From IMG/VR virus record IMGVR_UViG_3300046167_000184, positions 1-41,647 of that record: a stretch of 41,647 bases of DNA; one strand, 5' to 3'. The stretch is from a virus. Numbering within the stretch: the stretch's first letter is position 1; each line of letters starts with the position of its first letter. Under the pieces are notes generated by a model. That model was given only the letters and a program-made list of their open reading frames with translations. It was not told where the DNA came from and made no database searches. This document shows, one piece after another, positions 18,697-41,647 of the stretch. Made by a program: the position numbers and the translations under genes.

Positions 18697-19626
18697 TTAT
18701 CCTAATGCTATACTCAAAGCCAATGCTTCGTCAGTTGTTCCATATCCAGCAGACGCATGATTGCCCCAAGCATGTGCAGTGTCAGCTTTAGTTCCTTGAG
18801 CCGCTGTAGCGTAGTCTGAGGACGCTGTTGCGGCGGCAGTTCCTAGTGTCGGCTTGCCCGATAGTGATGCGTAAGCACCATCAAAGAAACTGTCAGTAAT
18901 TCCATAGCCAGCTAATGTAGTCGGCTTTCCTGTTAGAGAGGCGAAGGCGTGTACGTGAGATGCCGTTGCATAATCCGTAGCGGCTGTAGTTGCCGCTGTA
19001 CCTAGACCTAAGTTTGTTCTTGCAGTCCCAGCGTTTGCTAGGTCAGACAGATTGTTAGCCTTTAGTGCAGCTGAAGATTGTGCCGCAATGGATGCGTCCC
19101 TTGCAACTATAGACGCATCACGGGCGGCTTCGGATGCCACTTGTGCAGTTTCAGCATCTGTTTTTGCTGTTACCGCACTGGCGGCTGAAGTCGATGATTC
19201 AGAGGCTTTTGTTGCTGAAGTTGATGCTGAAGTAGCCGCATTGTTTGCTTGGGTTGTTGCTAGGGCAACTTGTGCTGTCGCTAAAGTAACTTGAGCCGCA
19301 CCATTGGTAGTGGCGTCTGATGCTGAGTTTGCACTTGCGACTTTACTGGCTTCAGATGCTACGGCTGATGCGGCGGCTTCTGTGGCTTTTGAAGATGCAG
19401 TAGATGCTGAAGATGCCGAAGAAACACTAGCGGCAAGGGCATCTGCTTTGTACTGATTTGTCGTAGCTAGTGAAGCACTGGCTGAAGCTGAACTTGCGGC
19501 GGCATTTGATTGGCTGAGGGCGGCGGCTGTTGCTGAAGCGGCGGCGTTTGTGACTGCCGCATCTATTGCGTTTGATTGTGTATTTGTGATTCCAGAGCTA
19601 TTGTAAAAGCTGGTTTTTGAAGCCAT
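18697..19626 (-). CDS. Ala/Ser-rich tail fibre stalk protein
   Basis: The 309-residue product is dominated by Ala, Ser and Thr from about residue 20 to 195 in heptad-like runs (AAASASASLATTNQYKADAL), typical of fibre stalk repeats. The last third has fibre phrases: LSDLANAGTARTNLGLGTAA, FASLTGKPTTLAGYGITD and YASLSGKPTLGTAAATASSD. It is probably a fibre connecting the tail to the distal receptor-binding proteins encoded downstream. The low-complexity composition produces several long but meaningless antisense frames. Confidence 0.8.
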   Translation of the reverse strand: MASKTSFYNSSGITNTQSNAIDAAVTNAAASATAAALSQSNAAASSASASASLATTNQYKADALAASVSSASSASTASSKATEAAASAVASEASKVASANSASDATTNGAAQVTLATAQVALATTQANNAATSASTSATKASESSTSAASAVTAKTDAETAQVASEAARDASIVARDASIAAQSSAALKANNLSDLANAGTARTNLGLGTAATTAATDYATASHVHAFASLTGKPTTLAGYGITDSFFDGAYASLSGKPTLGTAAATASSDYATAAQGTKADTAHAWGNHASAGYGTTDEALALSIALG

Positions 19627-23118: not shown

Positions 23119-25150
23119 TTATCCGTTTGGACTTGCGATTGCCCTGACATCATCAGCCTTACGTGCTATCTCTAGCTCCTCTAAGTTTACGAACTCTTTG
23201 TGTTCAAACTCAGTCTCGTTAAGGTCTTGTTTGTCAGATTGTAGGGCGAATGCTTGTTGAGCCTTCATAGTGTCTAACTCATGTTTCATTTGCCGCATTT
23301 GTGCATCCAGTTGTACCTTCATTTCAGCGACAGCTGTTTGTCGTTCTTGAAGTTGCATCTGTTGCTGTGCCATCTGCATCTGCATCTCAGCATTTGGATC
23401 AGGTGGCGGTGGAGGTATCATCGCTGGGTCTGTTAAGAAGTCAGCAACATTCTTGATACCTGATTTCTCTAGGACTGATGCCAGCATCTTGAACTTGTTC
23501 TGCGGAGAGTACATTTGTCCAAGTGTAGGATCAGCGGAGAATAACTGATGGAACGACAAGTGTTTTTGAACCAGCTGCTCCTGATCGCCGTAGCCCAAGT
23601 GGAACTCAACTTGTACGTCACGTTTATCTGCCCATTGCGATGGGTCGATAGGTACATAACGTCCAGCTAACTCAACAATCTTCTCTTCAGACTCGTTCTC
23701 TACAACCAATGAATAGACCATTGAGAATAGAGGCTTTAAGAAGTTGTTCGCAAAGTTACGCGCAATAATCTTCTGTCGCTGTTGGCTCATTGTCGCCAAC
23801 TGCTCGACCATTGCCGCTGAGTTTTGTTTGCTTATAGCGTCTTTATTAAGACCTTGGGATAGGCGAGAGACACCAGAAGTGTCTTCTTTATCCTCATCCA
23901 ACATCTGAATAGTTTGGAATACAAACGGGTTCAGAGATGCTTGAGGCATAGGGCTAATAGCATCAGGGCGTGATATATTCACGATACCACCGACACGATT
24001 GTCTATTAGTTCTCTTGGGTTCGTAAGGCCACCTTTCACCACTGTATAACGTGGGTTGTTAGTAACCATAGCGTGATCAAGTATAGAACGTGTTAATACT
24101 GTACGTGCATTCTGTATGCCTAGTAGTTTCTCAGCGAAGTTGTTGCCGTGGAAAGCATGTGGGATAGGCAGGGGTACAAATGCTACGAAAGGTCGTCGCT
24201 TTACTATCTCTTTCTCAAGTAAGATGTTTGATGCTTTGACTACTTTGTAGAGTTCAGCAACACCAGTTCCTTCACAGGTCTAGCTCAATGAATGCCTCGA
24301 CTACAGTTACCTGTCGTGTTTGCCGTTGATAGCCTTTTGCATTGAAGCCTCGATCTGCACCGATGTCGTCAAAGCGAGATAGTATCTCAGGGTCATTGTC
24401 AAAGTCTGTATCTTCATTGTCAGAAATTTTAGCAACCAAGTCTTCGTCGTAGCCCATCTCTATGAGTTCAGAGATAGACTTCTTAGTTCGGTGTGCACAA
24501 AAGCTAACATCATCTAGTGACTTTGCTTGTGGTTCAATCAAGAACTCCTCTGGTGCAATAGCCTCAACCTTAACCTGTGATGTGTCACGGGTCACACGTA
24601 GCTCACCAGAGAACATACCAGCCTCTTCAGTAAGTTCTTCGATTTCTACATTATCTTCTGCTAGAAGAGCATCAAGTTCTTCCTCTGTTAGACCTTCGAC
24701 ATACTCCAGTGTGCTTTCGTCTTGCATACACCAGTAAACTTTAGCTACGCCAGCACGGGCGATGAGACCATCGTGAATAACAGTCTGCATAGTTTCAAAC
24801 AGGTTGTTCTGACGATGTAGAACGTAGTCGGTGTACTCTGTGCAGACTTCAGCTGTAGGAACATCATCAGCATTCTGTGGTGAGAACCTGAGTGTCTTGT
24901 TGCCTGTGCTAAATGTCTCTAACAAAGATGCCTTCATGCTTTCTACAGCGTCATAGACGTCTTGGCTGACATACTTACTATTACCATCATGCGCTGGGCG
25001 TGGTAGTTTAGCTGAATAGTAGTCCATTACCTGTCTACGTTCTTTCGACAACTCACTGTCATAATATCCAATAGAACGTCTTAAATTAGTATCGACTATG
25101 GACACAATCTGATCGTCGTCGAGTTTTTTATAATCTTTATTTGATTTCAT
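23119..25150 (-). CDS. Portal protein, broken by a +1 frameshift
   Basis: This is a podovirus portal (head-tail connector) of about 676 residues once a single extra base is ignored. The first frame (25150-24272) covers residues 1-292, from SIGYYDSELSKERRQVMDYY and ARAGVAKVYW to EAFIELDL, then hits TGA at 24274-24272. Reading one base later, the text continues EGTGVAELYKVVKASNILLE, PIPHAFHGNNFAEKLLG, then SGVSRLSQGLNKDAISKQN, the usual portal core, and ends with a Gln/Met-rich coiled-coil tail. The extra base lies within 24274-24278. No ribosome binding site restarts the second part. A sequencing indel is likelier than two genes. It sits between terminase and scaffold, as expected. Confidence 0.9.
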
Positions 25151-32279: not shown

Positions 32280-33326
32280 TTATCTCGTATGTGGGTTGGG
32301 TGTACTGCCTCTATAGAAAGACCCTGTACCTTGCTGACCGCCTTGCGGCATGTACTTACTTGCATATCCAAACCCTTGCATACCACCGCCTATTGCCGCG
32401 GCCATTGGGTCATTCATGTTAGCTTGGTATGTGTTGTTAGTATCTGGAGCCTTGCCCAACATACCAGACTGATACTGCATACGCTTCTCAAGTTCAAAGT
32501 CACGTTGGTCTTCAAATCTTTTCTTCTGGTCATTCAGCTGTGCTTGATTGAATCCTTGTAAGGAGTTACCAGCGTTCATACCAAAGTTAGCACCTGTTCC
32601 TAATGTATCCATGCCCATACCATAAGCACTCATGAGGTTTGTGTTTGCTTGTCCAGCACCCTGCAATGCAGAGCCTTGGTCACGGAACTGTTGTGCCTGT
32701 TGGTTTAGACTGCGATCTATAAGACTATTCTGGATGTTTGTAGCTACATCGGCACGTCTGTCGTCATATGCTCGGTTAGCTACTGCTTCCGCTACACCAG
32801 CGCGACTAGAGTTCATGTTGCCAGAGCCCATTGCCGCCATGTCTATGCCAGTCAAAGTGTTCTCTTGTAGGTTACGACGATCATCACGCATTGCGGCATC
32901 TACTAGAGAGCCTGAGTTTGCTGATGCGTAGTTCATAGCATTACTAAGTCGGTCTTGCTGTGCCGCATCTGCCATACCTTGATACTGTCCGTACAATGAG
33001 TTTGCATTGTTACCAAAGCCAGCTGTATTGCCCATCATGGCGTTACCACTGTTCATCATGTTAGTACCAAAGTTGCCCATAGTGTTTGCAGTGCCAGTTT
33101 GGAACTGGTTAGGTGCGGCTAGAGTGTCACCTTGGTAGGCTCCTGTGCTCAACACACCATCCAGTGCACCTTGACTGCCTTTTAGGTTAGCATCCACGTA
33201 TGGTTTGTATTGGTTGAACGAAGCCATGTTAGCCGCATTAGCCGCATTCTGTGCATCTGCCTGTTTCTTTGAACCTAGATAACTAGCCCCTGCGCCTATG
33301 ACAGCCCCTGCTATTTGTCCCCACAT
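32280..33326 (-). CDS. Internal virion/DNA ejection protein
   Basis: The 348-residue product begins MWGQIAGAVIGAGASYLGSK, a glycine/alanine-rich hydrophobic start found in internal virion proteins of marine podoviruses (T7 gp14-like role), followed by KQADAQNAANAANMASFNQ and a long Asn/Met/Gly/Gln-rich region with helical stretches (RFEDQRDFELEKRMQYQSG). The hydrophobic start could insert into the outer membrane during ejection. Role is inferred from position and composition. Confidence 0.75.
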   Translation of the reverse strand: MWGQIAGAVIGAGASYLGSKKQADAQNAANAANMASFNQYKPYVDANLKGSQGALDGVLSTGAYQGDTLAAPNQFQTGTANTMGNFGTNMMNSGNAMMGNTAGFGNNANSLYGQYQGMADAAQQDRLSNAMNYASANSGSLVDAAMRDDRRNLQENTLTGIDMAAMGSGNMNSSRAGVAEAVANRAYDDRRADVATNIQNSLIDRSLNQQAQQFRDQGSALQGAGQANTNLMSAYGMGMDTLGTGANFGMNAGNSLQGFNQAQLNDQKKRFEDQRDFELEKRMQYQSGMLGKAPDTNNTYQANMNDPMAAAIGGGMQGFGYASKYMPQGGQQGTGSFYRGSTPNPHTR

Positions 33327-33342
33327 ATAATATTCCTTTTGT

Positions 33343-35246: not shown

Positions 35247-35987
35247 TTAAGTTTTCATTATGTACGCTAGGGCATAGTATGGGGGTCTGTTCTCATGTGA
35301 ACTTCCGCTACCAGTGTTGCCTGTTGTACCACTGACTGAGAATGTGTGGTTGTGGCTACCAGCGGCTCCTGTGGAGTTCCCAAGTTTGTTGAACTCATTA
35401 AGACCTGTCACTGGAGAACCAGAGTCACCATCTCGTCCAGTGTCTGTAGGATGCGGCTGTGCTACGTCAGGGTGCGTGTGGTTTCCTATAGTGCTGGTAG
35501 TACCAGAGCCACTAAAGCTGTGACTGTGTGCTGGTATGTTGGCTGTAGACAGTGAGACACTATCAGTACCACCAGTGTCATTGACTGCATAAGATGAGCC
35601 AGCACCCACCACAAACCGATTACGAAGGTCTGGGGTACTGTTGGAGCCATTACATAAGACCCAACCACTAGGTATCGCTGAGACTGCCCCAGACCACATA
35701 ATGATACCACCAGAAGGTATGCCACCAGTGGCGGCTATAGCATTCAACTGTGCTGTCGTAGCAGTCAATCCGTCTAGCTTATTGATCTCTGATGCAGACG
35801 CTGTAACGCCAGTAAGGGCATTGAGTTCTGTGTGTGACGATGTGATTGCTCCAGTGACGTTGGGCAACGTAGATTTGATGGTAGACTTTAGTAGTCTGAT
35901 GTGGTCATCAGCTTGCGCCAAGCCGTCTGTGGAGGCTGGGTTTGAGGCGTTGAGGCTGTTGATGTAAGTTCCTGATTCAAGTGCCAT
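35247..35987 (-). CDS. Tail fibre with phage collar domain
   Basis: The 246-residue product has an N-terminal module ADDHIRLLKSTIKSTLPNV and ITSSHTELNALTGVTASASE typical of short tail fibres, then a collar domain: GIIMWSGAVSAIPSGWVLCN, STPDLRNRFVVGAG, several His-x-His motifs (AHSHSF, NHTHPD, SHNHTF) that in related fibres bind metal, and the terminal ENRPPYYALAYIMKT. It is likely the tip of a short fibre. It is first in the leftward virion operon, directly downstream of the divergent control region. Confidence 0.85.
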   Translation of the reverse strand: MALESGTYINSLNASNPASTDGLAQADDHIRLLKSTIKSTLPNVTGAITSSHTELNALTGVTASASEINKLDGLTATTAQLNAIAATGGIPSGGIIMWSGAVSAIPSGWVLCNGSNSTPDLRNRFVVGAGSSYAVNDTGGTDSVSLSTANIPAHSHSFSGSGTTSTIGNHTHPDVAQPHPTDTGRDGDSGSPVTGLNEFNKLGNSTGAAGSHNHTFSVSGTTGNTGSGSSHENRPPYYALAYIMKT

Positions 35988-36041
35988 ATCTGGGGTTCCT
36001 GACTATTGTGTTTCTGGGGATGGCTCTTGTTTCGAAGGCCG

Positions 36042-36405: not shown

Positions 36406-36427
36406 GATAGACAATCAATCTAGGGTT

Positions 36428-36535
36428 ACTTTAGTTGTCTTTAGTAGTCTTTAGTTACCTTAGTTGTCCTTGTTCCTCTTCTTTGATTTGCTGGTAGAGG
36501 ATGATCGAAGGTCGTCTTTAGTAGTCTATAGTTGT
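36428..36535. repeat. 10-bp phased CTTTAGT repeats
   Basis: ACTTTAGTTG, TCTTTAGTAG, TCTTTAGTTA and CCTTAGTTGT follow each other with exactly 10-base spacing at 36428-36467. A second cluster (GTCTTTAGTAGTCTATAGTTGTCTT) lies at about 36510-36536. One helical turn spacing suggests a protein-binding array or bent DNA. Possible roles are integrase arm sites, a repressor or origin; none is proven. Confidence 0.8.
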
Positions 36536-36795
36536 CTTGGCCTTGGGAGCATCAGTTACTCAAGGGAAGTCTGAGGGACTGTAGCTCAACCAAGGCCATC
36601 ACAAGCCTATATAGTCTGGCTTTGTGGTCTCTGTCGTCGGTATGTTGGTGTCTGTTTGTTCTAAAGGGTGACACAAGTATTCTATAGTTAATTAATTGCC
36701 ATATATGCATTGACGAGGGATGCATCTTTTGATATTCCTTGGGCATACCGAAGGCATTTGCCCGAAGACTAAAGATGGGCGACAGGCCGCAAGGT

Positions 36796-36824
36796 GTGGC
36801 AGGGGACTGTAACTCCCTCCACCA
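36796..36824 (+). other. Stable hairpin with tRNA-like 3' end; candidate attP core
   Basis: GTGG-CA-GGGGA-CTGTAAC-TCCCT-CCAC folds into a strong hairpin (one 2-base bulge). The right arm ends ACTCCCTCCACCA, which reads like the 3' acceptor end of a tRNA gene, and the loop CTGTAAC looks like a Tyr anticodon loop. No full tRNA can be folded around it. Because this phage encodes a tyrosine integrase, and such enzymes often use tRNA 3' ends, this is a candidate attachment core. Weak but testable. Confidence 0.3.
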
Positions 36825-36887
36825 AAGCGGATCAGATCGCACCACCAGAGCCAACAACAGGCCGAGGGATTAGTCAGACAGCAAGTA

Positions 36888-36907
36888 CCTTCTTAACCAA
36901 AGAAGGA
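36888..36907 (+). promoter_or_regulatory. Hairpin covering the ribosome binding site of the first early gene
   Basis: CCTTCTT (36888-36894) pairs with AAGAAGG (36900-36906) around AACCA, hiding the AAGGA ribosome binding site of the gene at 36916. Such a stem could lower translation until opened, or stabilise the 5' end of the early mRNA. Confidence 0.6.
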
Positions 36908-36915
36908 ACTACAGA

Positions 36916-37272
36916 ATGACAAATGAAATCAAAAGCAACATCATCAGAGACCTACAAGGCAACGTACTTGCAGGGGATCACTACACAATCAATATGTTCT
37001 CTTGCTGGCTCGATGGGTCTTACTTAGGCGAGAGCCACTACAGACAGAACCTAAAGCGAATTGGGGAATGCGAGGGCAACCGCAAGAAGCTACGTTCTTT
37101 CATCATCAGAGAGTTCACAAGCTATATTGCTCATGATGCGGCTTGTTCTTACGGATATGCACAGAAGGTACTGGTCGAGCACTTAGGCTTAGACACACTT
37201 GAAAAGCTGAATGATCGTTTGATCAACTGGGCAATCAACTTCCACGCTGAACAAGTGGGAGAAGTAGCATGA
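36916..37272 (+). CDS. Unknown early protein
   Basis: This is the first clear rightward early gene, 118 residues: NIIRDLQGNVLAGDHYTINM, then RFIIREFTSYIAHDAACSY-like helix-rich text (LRSFIIREFTSYIAHDAACS). Soluble, no membrane segment, no family recognised. The leader AGAAGGAACTACAGAATG matches two other early genes. Early T7-like genes at this place usually counter host functions; that is only a positional guess. It ends in ATGA overlap with the next gene. Confidence 0.75.
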   Translation: MTNEIKSNIIRDLQGNVLAGDHYTINMFSCWLDGSYLGESHYRQNLKRIGECEGNRKKLRSFIIREFTSYIAHDAACSYGYAQKVLVEHLGLDTLEKLNDRLINWAINFHAEQVGEVA

Positions 37273-37439
37273 GCGATCTAGCTAAAGACATTGAAATAGA
37301 TGGCCTTCTTGCGCAAATCCGCAGTGAGACAGACAGCATCAAAAGAGCATCTGACAGAATTGTCAGTCTACAGTCTGAAATCTACAAAATCCAAAAGCAC
37401 AAGGAACGGCTTGAGAGCAAAGTTGAGGTGCAGTTATGA
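37269..37439 (+). CDS. Small coiled-coil early protein
   Basis: The 56-residue product is nearly all helical with heptad spacing (IDGLLAQIRSETDSIKRASD, RIVSLQSEIYKIQKHKERL), so it probably oligomerises. It is coupled on both sides by ATGA overlaps with the genes at 36916 and 37436. Function unknown. Confidence 0.7.
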   Translation: MSDLAKDIEIDGLLAQIRSETDSIKRASDRIVSLQSEIYKIQKHKERLESKVEVQL

Positions 37440-37543
37440 GAGACCTAGTCAACCGCTTATCAACTCCTGAGTTCTGGGCAGACTTTGCCTTGGCTTGTGC
37501 AATCATGGTTACGCCCTTCGTTGCCTTCTACGCATACAACTGA
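37436..37543 (+). CDS. 35-residue single-membrane-helix peptide
   Basis: MRDLVNRLSTPEFWAD is followed by the hydrophobic FALACAIMVTPFVAFYAYN, one predicted membrane helix ending the peptide. The ATG overlaps the upstream stop (ATGA), supporting translation. Small inner-membrane peptides in early regions can affect host membrane or exclusion; role unknown here. Confidence 0.6.
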   Translation: MRDLVNRLSTPEFWADFALACAIMVTPFVAFYAYN

Positions 37544-37555
37544 GCCTACTGGTGC

Positions 37556-37575
37556 ACCCATGCTACGGCGTGGGT
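37556..37575 (+). promoter_or_regulatory. UACG-tetraloop hairpin in an early mRNA spacer
   Basis: ACCCATGC (37556-37563) pairs with GCGTGGGT (37568-37575) through one T-G pair, with a TACG loop closed by C-G (stable UNCG type). No T run follows. It sits in a 73-base spacer before the gene at 37617 and may be a processing or stability element. Confidence 0.6.
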
Positions 37576-37616
37576 CATCCAGTGGGATTAGCCACGACAA
37601 CAGAAGGAACGAAAGA

Positions 37617-37835
37617 ATGCAACCAGACTACAAATACAAAAGAGCCGATGGAGACGAGGTTTATTGCTATGGGAAGATTGAGGAAGACAGCAACTTTTCC
37701 ATCGTCTGTGATGATGAAGACTACGATGGCATCGCGGCAGATATAGACGCCACCATCTACAATACATTTCGGAAAGTTTGCAAATACTTGGAAGCAAACT
37801 ACCGCACTGACATTGCACAAATCGAAACTTGCTAA
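37617..37835 (+). CDS. Small acidic early protein
   Basis: The 72-residue product is tyrosine- and acid-rich (DYKYKRADGDEVYCYGKIEE, CDDEDYDGIAADIDATIY). The start at 37617 is set by the leader AGAAGGAACGAAAGAATG; the frame stays open upstream but without a site. Acidic small early proteins sometimes mimic DNA; this is a guess. No family is recognised. Confidence 0.7.
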   Translation: MQPDYKYKRADGDEVYCYGKIEEDSNFSIVCDDEDYDGIAADIDATIYNTFRKVCKYLEANYRTDIAQIETC

Positions 37836-37848
37836 GAGGAGAACGCGA

Positions 37849-38133
37849 ATGAGACTTTACACAAGCCCCAAGGGCGAATGGTCAGGAACACAGGCAGACG
37901 CAAAGAAGCTAGGGGCATTCGTTGAGACTGATGTTCCTACAGTCAAAGCTGATCTATTGGCTTTCTTAAATGATCACAGCGTCATGATTAATAAGCTGAA
38001 GGAACTAGGCTACGAAGCACCACAGCCAACCACAGCACCAGCTGAACCAGCCAAGCCCAGAGAGATCAAGCAGAACTCATTGGGTCTCATGGGCTTACGA
38101 GCGATTGAGAAGGGGTCAGAAGGCAGACGCTGA
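37849..38133 (+). CDS. Unknown early protein with Ala/Pro linker
   Basis: The 94-residue product has MRLYTSPKGEWSGTQADAKK, then helical TVKADLLAFLNDHSVMINKL, a Pro/Ala linker (APQPTTAPAEPAKP) and a basic end. The opening YTSPKGEWSGTQADAKKL resembles short modules in which a phage protein tags or binds DNA processing factors, but I cannot name a family. Strong ribosome binding site AAGAGGAG. Confidence 0.7.
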   Translation: MRLYTSPKGEWSGTQADAKKLGAFVETDVPTVKADLLAFLNDHSVMINKLKELGYEAPQPTTAPAEPAKPREIKQNSLGLMGLRAIEKGSEGRR

Positions 38134-38193
38134 AGCAATGCTTCTCAAGGGTCTAAAGATACAGCGAGAACTAGCCAGTTGATTACATCAGTT

Positions 38194-38269
38194 AGCCCAG
38201 CGTCAAGGCGTTGGGTTTGCTCATGCAATCAAGCATGAAGTAGCGGAGCTACGAAACTAGCGAAGCTAG
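38194..38269 (+). promoter_or_regulatory. Cluster of four consecutive hairpins in an early leader
   Basis: Four perfect or near-perfect stems follow in 76 bases: AGCCCAGCG/CGTTGGGTT (9 bp with two G-T, 38194-38217), TCATGC/GCATGA (38221-38238), GTAGC/GCTAC (38240-38252) and CTAGC/GCTAG (38257-38269), the last two with three-base loops. They fill most of the 157-base gap 38134-38290, which has no convincing gene, and end about 6 bases before the next ribosome binding site. Confidence 0.75.
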
Positions 38270-38290
38270 AACTAAAGAAGGAACAAAAGA

Positions 38291-38491
38291 ATGAATACAA
38301 TGGAAACTTTTAAAGTGAAAGATTTGAGAACCAATGAACTATATAAATGGTCTCTTGAGGAAGTTCTCTATGTAATCAACTTAGGTCATTCTGATCAATG
38401 GACTTTATACACAGCCGACGATTGGAAAGAGGGTTGGGCTAATTGGGTTGAAGGGTGTGGGTGGTACAGCATGGAGATGAACCATGACTGA
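38291..38491 (+). CDS. Small Trp-rich early protein
   Basis: The 66-residue product has seven Trp residues (WSLEEV, QWTLYTADDWKEGWANWVEG, CGWYSM). The leader AGAAGGAACAAAAGAATG supports the start. It follows the hairpin cluster and overlaps the next gene by 8 bases. No family is recognised. Confidence 0.7.
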   Translation: MNTMETFKVKDLRTNELYKWSLEEVLYVINLGHSDQWTLYTADDWKEGWANWVEGCGWYSMEMNHD

Positions 38492-38654
38492 AGAACGCAA
38501 AAGATACCGCATCTTACTTGAAGACGAGAAGTACAGCGTTGACCTTCGCACCTACAACGACAGGGAAACAGCTGAACATCACGCAAAACTTTATGCACAA
38601 ATCACTGGCGGAAAGACGTCAGTATTCGAGGAGGTTTACTACAATGATTATTGA
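38484..38654 (+). CDS. Small unknown early protein
   Basis: The 56-residue product is mixed-charge (MTEERKRYRILLEDEKYSVD, then TYNDRETAEHHAKLYAQITG), compatible with a small alpha/beta fold. It overlaps the previous gene's end and the start of the next (38644), so it is translated as part of a compact early operon. Function unknown. Confidence 0.65.
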   Translation: MTEERKRYRILLEDEKYSVDLRTYNDRETAEHHAKLYAQITGGKTSVFEEVYYNDY

Positions 38655-38859
38655 TTACACAGCAGAAACAGCAGTTGAAGCCTTGCAAGTAGCTTTGTTC
38701 AGAAGCCTTACAGCAAGCACTGTAGAAAAAAGTTCAGCTGCATCTAGCCTAGCGCAAGCAATGGCTAACAAATTAACAGCACAGGAACTGGAGCAAGCCA
38801 AAGCTGGAGCAATAGAGATGGCAGTTCGTGAGCATTACGAAAGGAAAGCAAATGGGTGA
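38644..38859 (+). CDS. Small helical early protein
   Basis: The 71-residue all-helical product (AETAVEALQVALFRSLTAST, ASSLAQAMANKLTAQELEQA). The start at 38644 has GAGGAGG at 38628-38634; the frame is open upstream but that part overlaps another gene. Function unknown. Confidence 0.65.
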   Translation: MIIDYTAETAVEALQVALFRSLTASTVEKSSAASSLAQAMANKLTAQELEQAKAGAIEMAVREHYERKANG

Positions 38860-39061
38860 AGTAATTCAATTGAATGCTGATTATGCGCTAGGAATGCAGT
38901 CAGCAAGGGAAGCAGTAGCATCAGGCGACATCTACTGTATCGAAAGTGCGCTAATGCTTTACGAGCAAGACCCAGCGGACAGCGAGTTTCAAAGGGGACA
39001 CCACAGGGCACTTATAAATTTACATCAGCAACAAGGAAGGAAGTCCAATGACCTTTCTTGA
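38852..39061 (+). CDS. Small early protein before integrase
   Basis: The 69-residue product (MGEVIQLNADYALGMQSARE, CIESALMLYEQDPADSEF, HHRALINLHQQQG) is helical and resembles a short tetratricopeptide-like hairpin, without a confident match. It starts inside the previous gene's end and overlaps the integrase start by 14 bases. Confidence 0.6.
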   Translation: MGEVIQLNADYALGMQSAREAVASGDIYCIESALMLYEQDPADSEFQRGHHRALINLHQQQGRKSNDLS

Positions 39062-39941
39062 GTTAGTCCAAATGGACGCAAAGCTAATTTGGGACGGAGA
39101 AGCACACCGAGCCCGAAGCATAACCAAAGCCGAGCGATTTGCCTCTTTCTCTGATTATGAGACAAGGGGCATCGGCGACTTTAAGCCTAGCCATATTCAC
39201 AAGTTCTTTGACAGTCTCGCGGAGCAGGGGTTGTCTAATAATACTATAAACCACTATGGGGCTATGATAGTCAAAGTGTTCTCTCATGCTGTCTGTGAGG
39301 AGCTGATTAGCCATGTACCCAAATTTAAGTATAGGAAGGTTAGAGGTAACAAGCGGCCTTTATACTTTACAAAGTCTCAAATAGACTTAATGTCGTCCTA
39401 CTTTCGAGATAGTGCTGACTTCAGAGACCTAGAGTTTTATTTGATCATTGGCATTCAAACAGGAATGCGTATTGGTGAGATAAGGAGCATAAACGAACGC
39501 ACATTAATTATTGATGCAACTGGTGGTTATTCAGTCTACTTAGCTGACACCAAGAACGGCGACAGCCGCACAGTACCCATCAATGATCAAGCCCTAAGAG
39601 CCATCAGGAAACTAGGAACTGATGTCTCTAAGAATTGGAACAGCAAGTTGTTTTATCGTGGTTGGAAACACATGAGAAGGGCAGTCCTTAACGACGACAG
39701 CCGTTACACCTTCCACACAACAAGACATACTTGTGCAACAACGCTGGCTAACAGTGGGGCTTATAATACGGACATCATCGGAAAGTTTTTAGGACACCGA
39801 GACCTAAACACCACCCGAAAATACATAAAGACAGCACCAGAGACCCTTCGGTCTATGGCAGAACTAATGAGAGGAGAGCAAAGCAAAACTATTGCAGAAC
39901 CACAAGCCAGACAGACTGATCTGTTTGGACTGGAAATATAA
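39048..39941 (+). CDS. int: Tyrosine recombinase (integrase)
   Basis: The 297-residue site-specific recombinase has all catalytic residues: Arg141 in TGMRIGEI, Lys169 in ADTKNGDSRTVPI, His223 and Arg226 in FHTTRHTCATTLA, His250 in KFLGHRDLNTT and the nucleophile Tyr259 in TRKYIKTAPE. The N-terminal SAM-like core-binding part is present (FKPSHIHKFFDSLAEQGLSN) but the very N-terminus is short, so an arm-binding domain is small or absent. It lies just upstream of the RNA polymerase gene, the same place as in temperate-type T7-like cyanophages and pelagiphages. It would insert the genome into the host chromosome; no excisionase or repressor is recognised. Confidence 0.95.
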   Translation: MTFLELVQMDAKLIWDGEAHRARSITKAERFASFSDYETRGIGDFKPSHIHKFFDSLAEQGLSNNTINHYGAMIVKVFSHAVCEELISHVPKFKYRKVRGNKRPLYFTKSQIDLMSSYFRDSADFRDLEFYLIIGIQTGMRIGEIRSINERTLIIDATGGYSVYLADTKNGDSRTVPINDQALRAIRKLGTDVSKNWNSKLFYRGWKHMRRAVLNDDSRYTFHTTRHTCATTLANSGAYNTDIIGKFLGHRDLNTTRKYIKTAPETLRSMAELMRGEQSKTIAEPQARQTDLFGLEI

Positions 39942-39959
39942 AAAGGGAAGTAAAGTAAG

Positions 39960-40085
39960 ATGAACAACAAAGTAAGCGAGAATAATAACCAACAAGGGTT
40001 CTTCGGTATCCGATTGTCTAGCTGGTGTAATCCAGAGACTGCCCCACCTGTAGTAACCAACAAAGCAGGGGGAGCCAAAACATGA
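39960..40085 (+). CDS. 41-residue ORF coupled to RNA polymerase
   Basis: The short gene (MNNKVSENNNQQGFFGIRLS, then WCNPETAPPVVTNKAGGAKT) has a good ribosome binding site (AGGGAAG near 39944) and its stop overlaps the polymerase start as ATGA. It may mainly serve translational coupling; the Asn/Pro-rich peptide has no known match. Confidence 0.6.
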   Translation: MNNKVSENNNQQGFFGIRLSSWCNPETAPPVVTNKAGGAKT

Positions 40086-41647
40086 GCAACGATAATACAC
40101 AGGCCAACCCTATTTCAGAAGCCTATAATGAGACCATGAAGGAAGATGGTAGAAGTAAGTGGAACGACAGGTATAAACAGGCAGACAACGTCACTGAGCA
40201 AGCACCAGAATACAACCAGTTAAAGCAAGTCTTGGACAAGGTTGCAGAAGGACTTACAAAAGATATAGAGGAAGCTAGAAGAGGCAAAGGCCGCCGCCCA
40301 ACGTGGCTTAACGACCTTATGCACCTTGACCCACGACAGCTGGCACTTATTGGCCTCCAAAGCTGTTACAATGCAGTTCTCAAAGACAGCACTATGAACT
40401 CAGTAACTCAGGAAATCGGTGGACTGATAGACAGGGAATGTCTTGCACTTGAGCTATTGCACAGTGAGGATGAGGAAGCCAACAAGAACAACGCTAGAAT
40501 TGTTAAGATGGTCTCTGAAACTCATACTTCAGCACATGTTAGACTGAAGGCACTCAGGAACATAGCAACCAAGAATGGCACCAAATCTGTATACTTTGGA
40601 ATATCTGAGACCAAGGCAGACAGGAAGATGCACAAGAAAAGACGCACAGCAAACTCTGCACCAGTTCTTTCAGCTATCTTTCAGTATTGTAATGTCTTTC
40701 AAAAGGACACCCAATATACAACACCAAAGAACAGCATTACTCGCCTTGCGTTTACTGATGAAGCCCAGCGCGAACTTGAGAGAAGCAAAGAGTATCTGCA
40801 ATGGTCACAGCCACTCCTAAAACCCATTCCTATGGACACTCCAAACCCATGGAAAGGATACCACACAGGAGCCTATAAGGACTGGCGGTTAGCAGAGCTA
40901 GTGAAGCTGGTCAGAGGGGCTTCAGTAAAGCAGATTGAGGCCATAGAGCACAGTTTTAAGGGTGAAACTCCAGAGCACTTTAGAGCCCTAAATGCACTCC
41001 AAGAAACGAGGCTTTGTATCAACGAAGAGATGTTGGAAGTAGTTGAGTGGTGCTGGGAGACACGGCAGTCATTCGGTAAGTTTCCAAAGAGAGATAAACC
41101 AGAGTTTCCAAGGCTACCCAAAGATCACATGACCATGTGCCAAGAGCTGAAGAAAGCAATCAAAGAAGACCAGCGTGAATGGAGAAATACGGAGAGGCGT
41201 GTCAAAGGTGCTGAAGCAGTCATGAAGCAAGATTTGCAGATTGCTAATGAACTAGCAGTACACGATTGGTTCACGATCCCTTGGGCTTGTGATTTCAGAG
41301 GCCGCTTCAATATGGTTCCGTCATTTAACTATCACAGGGACGATCACATTAAGTCGCTCTTCCAGTTTCAAAGAGGTCGTGTAGTTGATGGGCAGAACAT
41401 CAGGTGGCTGAAAATACACATTGCCAACTGTAGTGGTTTTGAGAAGATCGACAAAGCACCTCTTGAAGATCGTGTGGCTTGGTTTGATAAAAATGAGGGT
41501 GTGCTGTTGGACATGGCTAAAGACTATAAAAACAGTCTGGGTCAATGGTCAGGTGCAGACAAACCTTTTCAAATGTTAGCCGCAATCTTTGAATATTCCA
41601 GATACCTTGAGGAAGGTGACGACTTCGTTGGTTTTATTCCGTATTCT
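40082..41647 (+). CDS. T7-like RNA polymerase, N-terminal part (continues at base 2)
   Basis: These are the first 522 codons of the single-subunit RNA polymerase. The ATG at 40082 has AGGGGGAG upstream. The N-terminal domain includes NDLMHLDPRQLALIGLQSCY; further on are the conserved WTGAYKDW-type region (YHTGAYKDWRLAEL), FTIPWACDFRGRFNMVPSFN (the T7 DYRGRVYA region) and PFQMLAAIFEYSRYL. The frame ends at the window edge in GFIPYS, just before the motif A that opens the window. In this genome the polymerase is the bridge between the early/integrase region and the replication operon. Confidence 0.95.
   Translation, partial: MSNDNTQANPISEAYNETMKEDGRSKWNDRYKQADNVTEQAPEYNQLKQVLDKVAEGLTKDIEEARRGKGRRPTWLNDLMHLDPRQLALIGLQSCYNAVLKDSTMNSVTQEIGGLIDRECLALELLHSEDEEANKNNARIVKMVSETHTSAHVRLKALRNIATKNGTKSVYFGISETKADRKMHKKRRTANSAPVLSAIFQYCNVFQKDTQYTTPKNSITRLAFTDEAQRELERSKEYLQWSQPLLKPIPMDTPNPWKGYHTGAYKDWRLAELVKLVRGASVKQIEAIEHSFKGETPEHFRALNALQETRLCINEEMLEVVEWCWETRQSFGKFPKRDKPEFPRLPKDHMTMCQELKKAIKEDQREWRNTERRVKGAEAVMKQDLQIANELAVHDWFTIPWACDFRGRFNMVPSFNYHRDDHIKSLFQFQRGRVVDGQNIRWLKIHIANCSGFEKIDKAPLEDRVAWFDKNEGVLLDMAKDYKNSLGQWSGADKPFQMLAAIFEYSRYLEEGDDFVGFIPYS

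Follow-up and report, generated by a model that had tools for sequence, protein, structure and literature searches.

Hairpins ahead of an early gene of a T7-like phage contig: a stop-anchored hairpin most likely of the mRNA-processing kind and a double-hairpin insertion that appears to be mobile

The dense hairpins in front of the early gene at 38291 of this phage contig are two unrelated things side by side: a long, imperfect intercistronic hairpin (M3) and a short double-hairpin insert. The window, that is, the whole stretch of DNA analyzed here, is an IMG/VR virus record of 41,647 bases, taken at full length. We consider it probable, although well short of certain, that the region is a composite of one or more processing hairpins on the early mRNA and a mobile insertion of ∼31 bp. 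M3 and its sister hairpin M2 are best read, from their anatomy, as RNase III-type mRNA-processing hairpins, and this is most likely what they are, while the insert appears to be a DNA-level element. Computation shows, for the long hairpins, a predicted fold that is conserved and anchored on a stop codon and around which genes are exchanged.

The features discussed are collected in Table 1. Genes for T7-like endonuclease I, helicase-primase, and family A DNA polymerase come after the RNA polymerase (RNAP) in gene order. The RNAP gene leaves the window at 41647 and, judged by eye, seemingly resumes at position 1, and the contig therefore looks permuted. Relatives, all of them IMG/VR contigs and labeled here with L numbers, comprised the best 80 by terminase, 30 loci by integrase (27 by alignment), and 37 loci by RNAP. 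The nearest cultured match by terminase, Roseobacter phage CRP-7 (39.5%), is distant, and a terminase search for a host returned four loci, a Gammaproteobacteria MAG contig (76%) and three Sphingomonas genomes (49 to 51%). Cultured phages searched with the DNA of 37900 to 38700 gave no match, and no close relative was confirmed in IMG/VR via the gene at 38291; among 12 M3 rows, a relative of this open reading frame (ORF) follows M3 in L107 only. Leaders resembling that at 38274 to 38290 precede the ATGs at 36916 and 37617 and are also found in relatives.

Table 1. Positions of the hairpins, insertion sites, and genes discussed in the text
Feature	Position	Strand	Remarks
Empty site B	33339..33340		Before minus-strand gene 32280-33326; element there in 12 related contigs
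Empty site C	36008..36009		Between GACTATTG and TGTTTCTGG, before minus-strand tail gene 35247-35987; 31 extra nt in L022 and kin
M1, small hairpin CCTTCTT..AAGAAGG	36888..36906	+	Pairs with Shine-Dalgarno-like sequence of first early gene (36916)
Small early ORFs	36916-41647 region	+	Without PHROG matches
M2, 22 pairs (one broken in window), 4-nt loop	37540..37591	+	z -4.91
Early ORF behind M2, 72 aa	37617..37835	+	No PHROG match
M3, imperfect hairpin	38179..38232	+	z -5.24; two 1x1 mismatches, 4-nt loop
Mini-hairpin TCATGC/GCATGA	38221..38238	+	Mutually exclusive with lower stem of M3
Double-hairpin insertion, 31 nt	38239..38269	+	A + GTAGCggaGCTAC gaaA CTAGCgaaGCTAG
Start leader AAAGAAGGAACAAAAGA	38274..38290	+	Precedes ATG at 38291
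Early ORF, 66 aa	38291..38491	+	No PHROG match
Tyrosine integrase	39048-39941	+
T7-type RNA polymerase, first part	40082 to window end	+	phrog_414, E 3.4e-74

Some further features of the window were noted in passing. The portal protein (23119 to 25150, minus strand) lies in two frames, both matching phrog_1216, which a frameshift or sequence error seems to separate. At 19061 to 19580, very strong predicted structure, partly on both strands, overlaps a tail-fibre-like ORF. Clustered CTTTAG-type repeats at 36424 to 36538, upstream of the early genes, are reminiscent of the short repeat arrays that T7 DNA carries near its ends. Before the first early gene, 36740 to 36860 folds strongly and holds a block, GGCAGGGGACTGTAACTCCC, kept in relatives although the adjoining bases differ; the block resembles an anticodon arm, yet ARAGORN found no tRNA gene in 15 loci.

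The first-pass annotation described four back-to-back hairpins in 38194 to 38269, and all four stems are there (38195 to 38216, 38221 to 38238, 38240 to 38252, and 38257 to 38269). Its impression of excess structure was also borne out: as RNA, these 76 bases fold at -30.7 kcal/mol against -19.87 (SD, 2.7) for shuffles (z = -4.01), and none of the 200 dinucleotide shuffles, which served as the null for the fold z-scores, was as stable. The absence of a T run after the stems was likewise correctly seen. The stems do not form a single four-hairpin cassette, since the 76 bases divide between a long hairpin (38179 to 38232) and a separate insert (38239 to 38269). The first stem is the tip of the longer hairpin, and the second is an alternative fold built from the 3' arm of M3's lower stem. 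Hairpins 3 and 4 alone have a z of -2.18, with 8 of 200 shuffles as stable, and in L082 and L083 both are missing: the match to 38101 to 38237 continues at 38269, and the two parts are contiguous in the relative. Of the functions first suggested (a small RNA, mRNA processing, and translational control), mRNA processing is the best fit for the first half (M3), but the GTAGC/CTAGC hairpins fall outside any such cassette. Rfam 15 gave no match in the window at the gathering score. A both-strand scan of 60-nt folds ranked M2 (37528 to 37605) first in the window at -32.0 and M3 (-26.7) 12th among 30 merged places at or below -23.5.

M3 reads TTGATTGCAT C AGT T AGCCCAGCGT CAAG GCGTTGGGTT T GCT C ATGCAATCAA, with a TGA (38180 to 38182) within the base of its 5' arm. 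It occurs in 19 contigs including the window, 16 found by pattern and two more besides. The alignment holds all 12 of the distinct 77-base sequences, 11 of which are distinct over 61 columns, and the consensus of the relatives has 23 pairs, one of them broken in the window, where (as in L082 and L100, making 3 of 12 rows) an A breaks one lower pair. Across the aligned relatives 95.7% of cells are paired. Two pairs are changed on both sides, both in one row (L143), and one pair shifts from G-U to A-U in two rows; 17 of 23 pairs are invariant, in three others the only variation is loss of pairing, and 5 of 11 rows have the outer pair broken. Because its covariation score is reached in 19 of 500 shuffles and most pairs are invariant, M3 taken alone is weak evidence. 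The paired changes that the first-pass annotation had proposed to look for in relatives are thus slight in M3 itself, and they are clear in its sister M2. Among 13 records searched, several of them fragments, 7 matched M3 model R1 and 9 matched R2; M3 is missing while M2 is present in the record of L106 (40,309 bases), and both are missing from that of L069 (40,729 bases). M3 was also considered as a coding sequence and rejected: its start is not conserved (TTG, CTG, or GTG), and in L084 the corresponding frame through M2 is interrupted by a stop. The frame through M3 (LIASVSPASRRWVCSCN..) stays open, and loop changes are synonymous in that frame, as read by eye.

M2 holds the upstream TGA (37541 to 37543) in its base, and the start leader AGAAGGAACGAAAGAATG comes after the hairpin. 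Its alignment comprises 12 of 13 distinct sequences (L122 was left out), with 98.1% of cells paired and three pairs changed on both sides (9 cells) in rows L085, L089, and L100. None of 500 shuffles reaches its covariation score, and slid controls contain no double change. Two of five measures, double-changed pairs and pair types, are not above shuffles (141 and 130 of 500), and the three double changes may represent a single event or lineage, because the same three rows carry all of them. L176, which is distantly related (its RNAP is 58% identical), carries a 20-pair hairpin, very different in sequence, between a stop and a start codon ahead of its integrase; M3 model R1 matches it at an E value of 0.022, which is weak on its own. 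The stems of M2 and M3 contain G-U pairs, and the plus strand folds better than the minus strand in 24 of 24 rows (12 M3 and 12 M2), which favors folding as RNA over folding as DNA. The much smaller M1 exists in seven variants among the loci of relatives: in one (L100 and kin) a pair is changed on both sides, in one (L097 and kin) there is a mismatch, and in two the outer pair is lost.

The position of these hairpins relative to genes is more constant than the genes themselves. In all 12 M3 rows and all 18 M2-type rows, L176 included, the upstream frame ends at a TGA in hairpin positions 2 to 4; measured from the preceding stop or the contig end, these frames span 38 to 201 codons. The proteins so ended vary at their termini (ELAS, EKAS, GSTS, DFLD, GVEE, and others) but mostly belong to one family per hairpin, i.e., in 10 of 11 clustered M3 rows and 15 of 18 M2 rows. 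No intact gene ends at the TGA of the window's own M3; its 57-codon upstream frame has no proper start and was too short to be clustered. Downstream, a start was found in 29 of 30 rows (the M2 of L097 gave none and was dropped), 23 to 42 nt behind the hairpin and, in the window, 58 nt behind it. The proteins that follow fall into 14 families in the 29 rows, 7 after M3 and 10 after M2, with three common to both; one gene can therefore follow either hairpin, and one hairpin can precede many genes.

The gene at 37849 to 38133 in the window runs out of frame into the end of the upstream frame of M3. It seems to be a fusion, with the N terminus of one type of relative and, out of frame, the C-terminal end of another; its relatives have a constant start (MRLYT..) and a variable end.

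Exchange of flanking genes raises the question of site-specific recombination, with M3 as an attC-like site. A tyrosine integrase is encoded nearby at 39048, and the M3 stem holds GTTGGGT, which fits GTTRRRY. In integrons, however, the attC heptamer GTTRRRY stands at the foot and there are many sites per array, whereas the heptamer of M3 is near the loop and each record has one M3 place and one M2 place where these are present. The best cultured matches of the integrase are pelagiphage integrases, at ∼30% identity, and homologous recombination at a conserved island would account for the exchange. We regard an attC-like role as extremely improbable.

A processing role fits the anatomy and the place of both hairpins. 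Each is a predicted imperfect hairpin of 22 to 23 pairs, about two helical turns, between early genes of a phage that encodes a T7-type RNAP, and both lie upstream of the RNAP gene at 40082. We propose that early transcripts fold at M2 and M3 with the upstream stop codon in the 5' foot and that host RNase III would cut both, freeing separate early mRNAs that each start just ahead of the start leader of the next gene. The mobile element of ∼31 bp, acting at the DNA level, would have landed between M3 and such a leader. In this T7-like phage group, stop-hairpin-start modules stay fixed while the surrounding genes are swapped, which would tie mRNA processing to modular evolution of early genes.

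The stop codon in the base of the stem, present in 30 of 30 rows, could instead point to translational control, in which M2 and M3 either shield the downstream start from ribosomes terminating at the TGA or act as a two-fold switch. A mini-hairpin on the 3' side, mutually exclusive with the long fold, is kept in both: it is paired in 66 of 66 cells over the 11 distinct M3 rows and in 57 of 60 cells of M2, and L176, read by eye from its sequence, could form TCGTGG/CCACGA at a like place. Changes in the mini-hairpin are one-sided only in both M3 and M2, and 5 of the 6 pairs in M3 are invariant, for which plain conservation could suffice. The start codon lies outside both folds, at the distances given above, and the long form wins in 24 of 24 rows (12 M3 and 12 M2); in M3 its lead is 1.2 to 2.8 kcal/mol in the window, L082, and L100 (2.8 in the window) and 8.8 to 11.0 kcal/mol in the other nine rows. 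Translational control is accordingly judged unlikely. Since a stopping ribosome would cover the 5' foot, a translation-dependent switch is nevertheless conceivable as a possible extra step to processing: the ribosome stopped at the TGA would melt the lower stem, the 3' arm would then form the mini-hairpin at 38221 to 38238, and the long form would be present only on RNA free of ribosomes. This switch is a weakly supported side idea.

The second half of the region behaves differently. The segment 38239 to 38269 appears to be a mobile double-hairpin insertion, a view suggested by filled and empty alleles at four sites in the window and the loci of relatives. Its 16 distinct contexts there divide into one at site A, nine at B, five at C, and one at D (the order and spacing of the two hairpins were set by the pattern). 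At site A, behind M3, the window has 31 nt more than L100. At site B, the filled alleles of L133 and L014 exceed the empty ones of L012 and L119, respectively, by 31 nt each, and L141 exceeds L112 by 30 nt around the junction. At site C, the difference is 31 nt between L022 and the window and 33 nt between L103 and L089, L128 and L020, and L130 and L007; at site D, it is 32 nt between L098 and L128. Presence at four sites requires at least four insertions. No long target duplication is found; at site C, three of the five filled alleles show a repeated TG. Sites B and C share one identical 30-mer.

Occupancy is sporadic. Among the 19 contigs with M3, the whole insert stands at site A in one (the window), the second hairpin only in four, a shorter remnant in one (L107), and nothing in 13; the single hairpins and the remnant represent decayed inserts. 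At site B, 12 contigs carry the element, 16 do not, and one (L118) has a decayed copy; at site C, 8 contigs carry it and 17 do not. The window counts among those without it at both sites. These filled fractions are biased, as part of the filled contigs were fetched by the insert pattern. A pattern with free loops found 20 IMG/VR stretches, all at sites B to D of this phage group, and a stricter pattern found no GTDB genome. Against cultured phages, the letters of the insert gave only a weak partial match (E 0.3) to one Enterobacter phage in two records. A match was present in 4 of 13 records, with 0 to 2 copies per record. A single small hairpin, CTAGC..GCTAG, lies inside an apparent coding region in L010 (L010:5519, minus strand) and L141; it was not counted as an insert because no empty counterpart was seen.

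The two small hairpins might instead be a functional part of the leader, for example, an mRNA stabilizer, kept by selection. The element lies just upstream of the start leader at sites A, B, and C, and its stems are kept while its loops vary: both stems are perfect in 8 of the 9 filled contig-sites at B and C that came from loci fetched without the insert pattern, and loops and spacer are variable at these sites. Against this, more contigs lack the element than have it at A, B, and C, with flanks alike; the site C copy is inverted relative to the gene, and the site D copy lies ∼650 nt upstream of the first early gene in L098. A leader function is thus unlikely, and the insertion is preferred. 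As DNA, the small hairpins are about equal on both strands (-6.1 and -5.6). The insert may have spread by recombination between phages at single sites.

Comparison with T7 supports the reading of M2 and M3 as processing hairpins. Five early gaps of at least 40 nt in the T7 sequence (NC_001604) were folded from the stop codon. The hairpins at 0.4/0.5, 0.7/1, and 1.2/1.3, which we take to be RNase III sites, resemble M2 and M3 in lying between genes of the early region and in consisting of an upper stem, an internal mismatch, and a lower stem. That at 0.4/0.5 (19 pairs) has the TGA of gene 0.4 paired in its foot, as in M2 and M3, whereas those at 0.7/1 (18 pairs) and 1.2/1.3 (17 pairs) are not stop-anchored; the 0.6/0.7 gap has no comparable hairpin, and the hairpin at 1/1.1 lies further on. 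The sequences are unrelated to those of M2 and M3, which differ also in being stop-anchored in every row and in having neighboring genes exchanged between phages. Three other integrase-carrying T7-like phages were compared. HTVC019P has two 21-pair hairpins and HTVC109P one 20-pair hairpin at or a few nucleotides from a stop codon, but all of them lead into T runs and are possible terminators; in LUZ100, strong folds are not stop-anchored, and one is inside an annotated terminator. Such pelagiphage hairpins, and the stability and intergenic position of M2 and M3, would be in keeping with termination of host or phage polymerase at the latter. M2 and M3, however, lack the T run, in contrast to hairpins at 1092 to 1127 and ∼2120 to 2147 of the same genome, and the integrase and RNAP genes lie downstream of them on the same strand, so that a terminator role is highly unlikely. 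(The hairpins at 1092 to 1127 and ∼2120 to 2147 end in T5 behind the RNAP and endonuclease I genes and are likely intrinsic terminators.) The RNase III-type reading is therefore made by anatomy and place. The literature matches listed, from open-licence papers, held nothing on RNase III sites in such phages. Most likely, M3 and M2 belong to a known kind, the T7-like processing hairpins, and are an unusual version of it, stop-anchored and exchangeable.

The insert is of a kind that we did not find described for phages among the literature matches listed (open-licence papers). REP/BIME elements, as described in PMC3733652 and PMC8266576, are like it in being small palindromes with stems of 5 to 13 bp and short loops, often paired, with GTAG. 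The GTAG of the insert, unlike theirs, is paired inside the first stem rather than preceding the palindrome, and the insert is not high copy. A RAYT-type transposase (Y1_Tnp, PF01797) was found in none of 8 records, with control genomes positive in 5 of 14; a transposase may be supplied by the host.

The nearest description is that of the double-hairpin elements and GC clusters of fungal mitochondrial DNA, to which the insert is likened by description: these are tens of base pairs long, hairpin-forming, sporadic, and variable in their loops. A study by Paquin from 2000 is reportedly on Allomyces. According to PMC2800124 and PMC4478555, those of Allomyces are without flanking duplications, and those of yeast have flanking AG or ACT and changes in their loops; hairpin elements of fungal mitochondrial DNA are also treated in PMC5910586. 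As in the fungal elements so described, two hairpins form a unit, flanking duplications are absent or of 2 to 3 nt, and presence is sporadic, with empty counterparts at sites A to D. The insert differs from them in residing in a phage and in having few rather than many copies per genome. Both phage and mitochondrial DNA are copied by T7-like enzymes, and such an element may therefore spread by a hairpin-dependent replication error rather than by a transposase; candidate errors would be template switching or the cutting of extruded hairpins by endonuclease I. That the insert is a true phage-borne double-hairpin transposable element of ∼31 bp, with no gene of its own and of the same kind as the fungal mitochondrial ones, is possible but doubtful. 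If true, it would carry these elements, a long-standing puzzle of mitochondrial DNA, into phage, where movement could be measured in culture and can be tested with the naturally occurring filled and empty alleles of the four sites.
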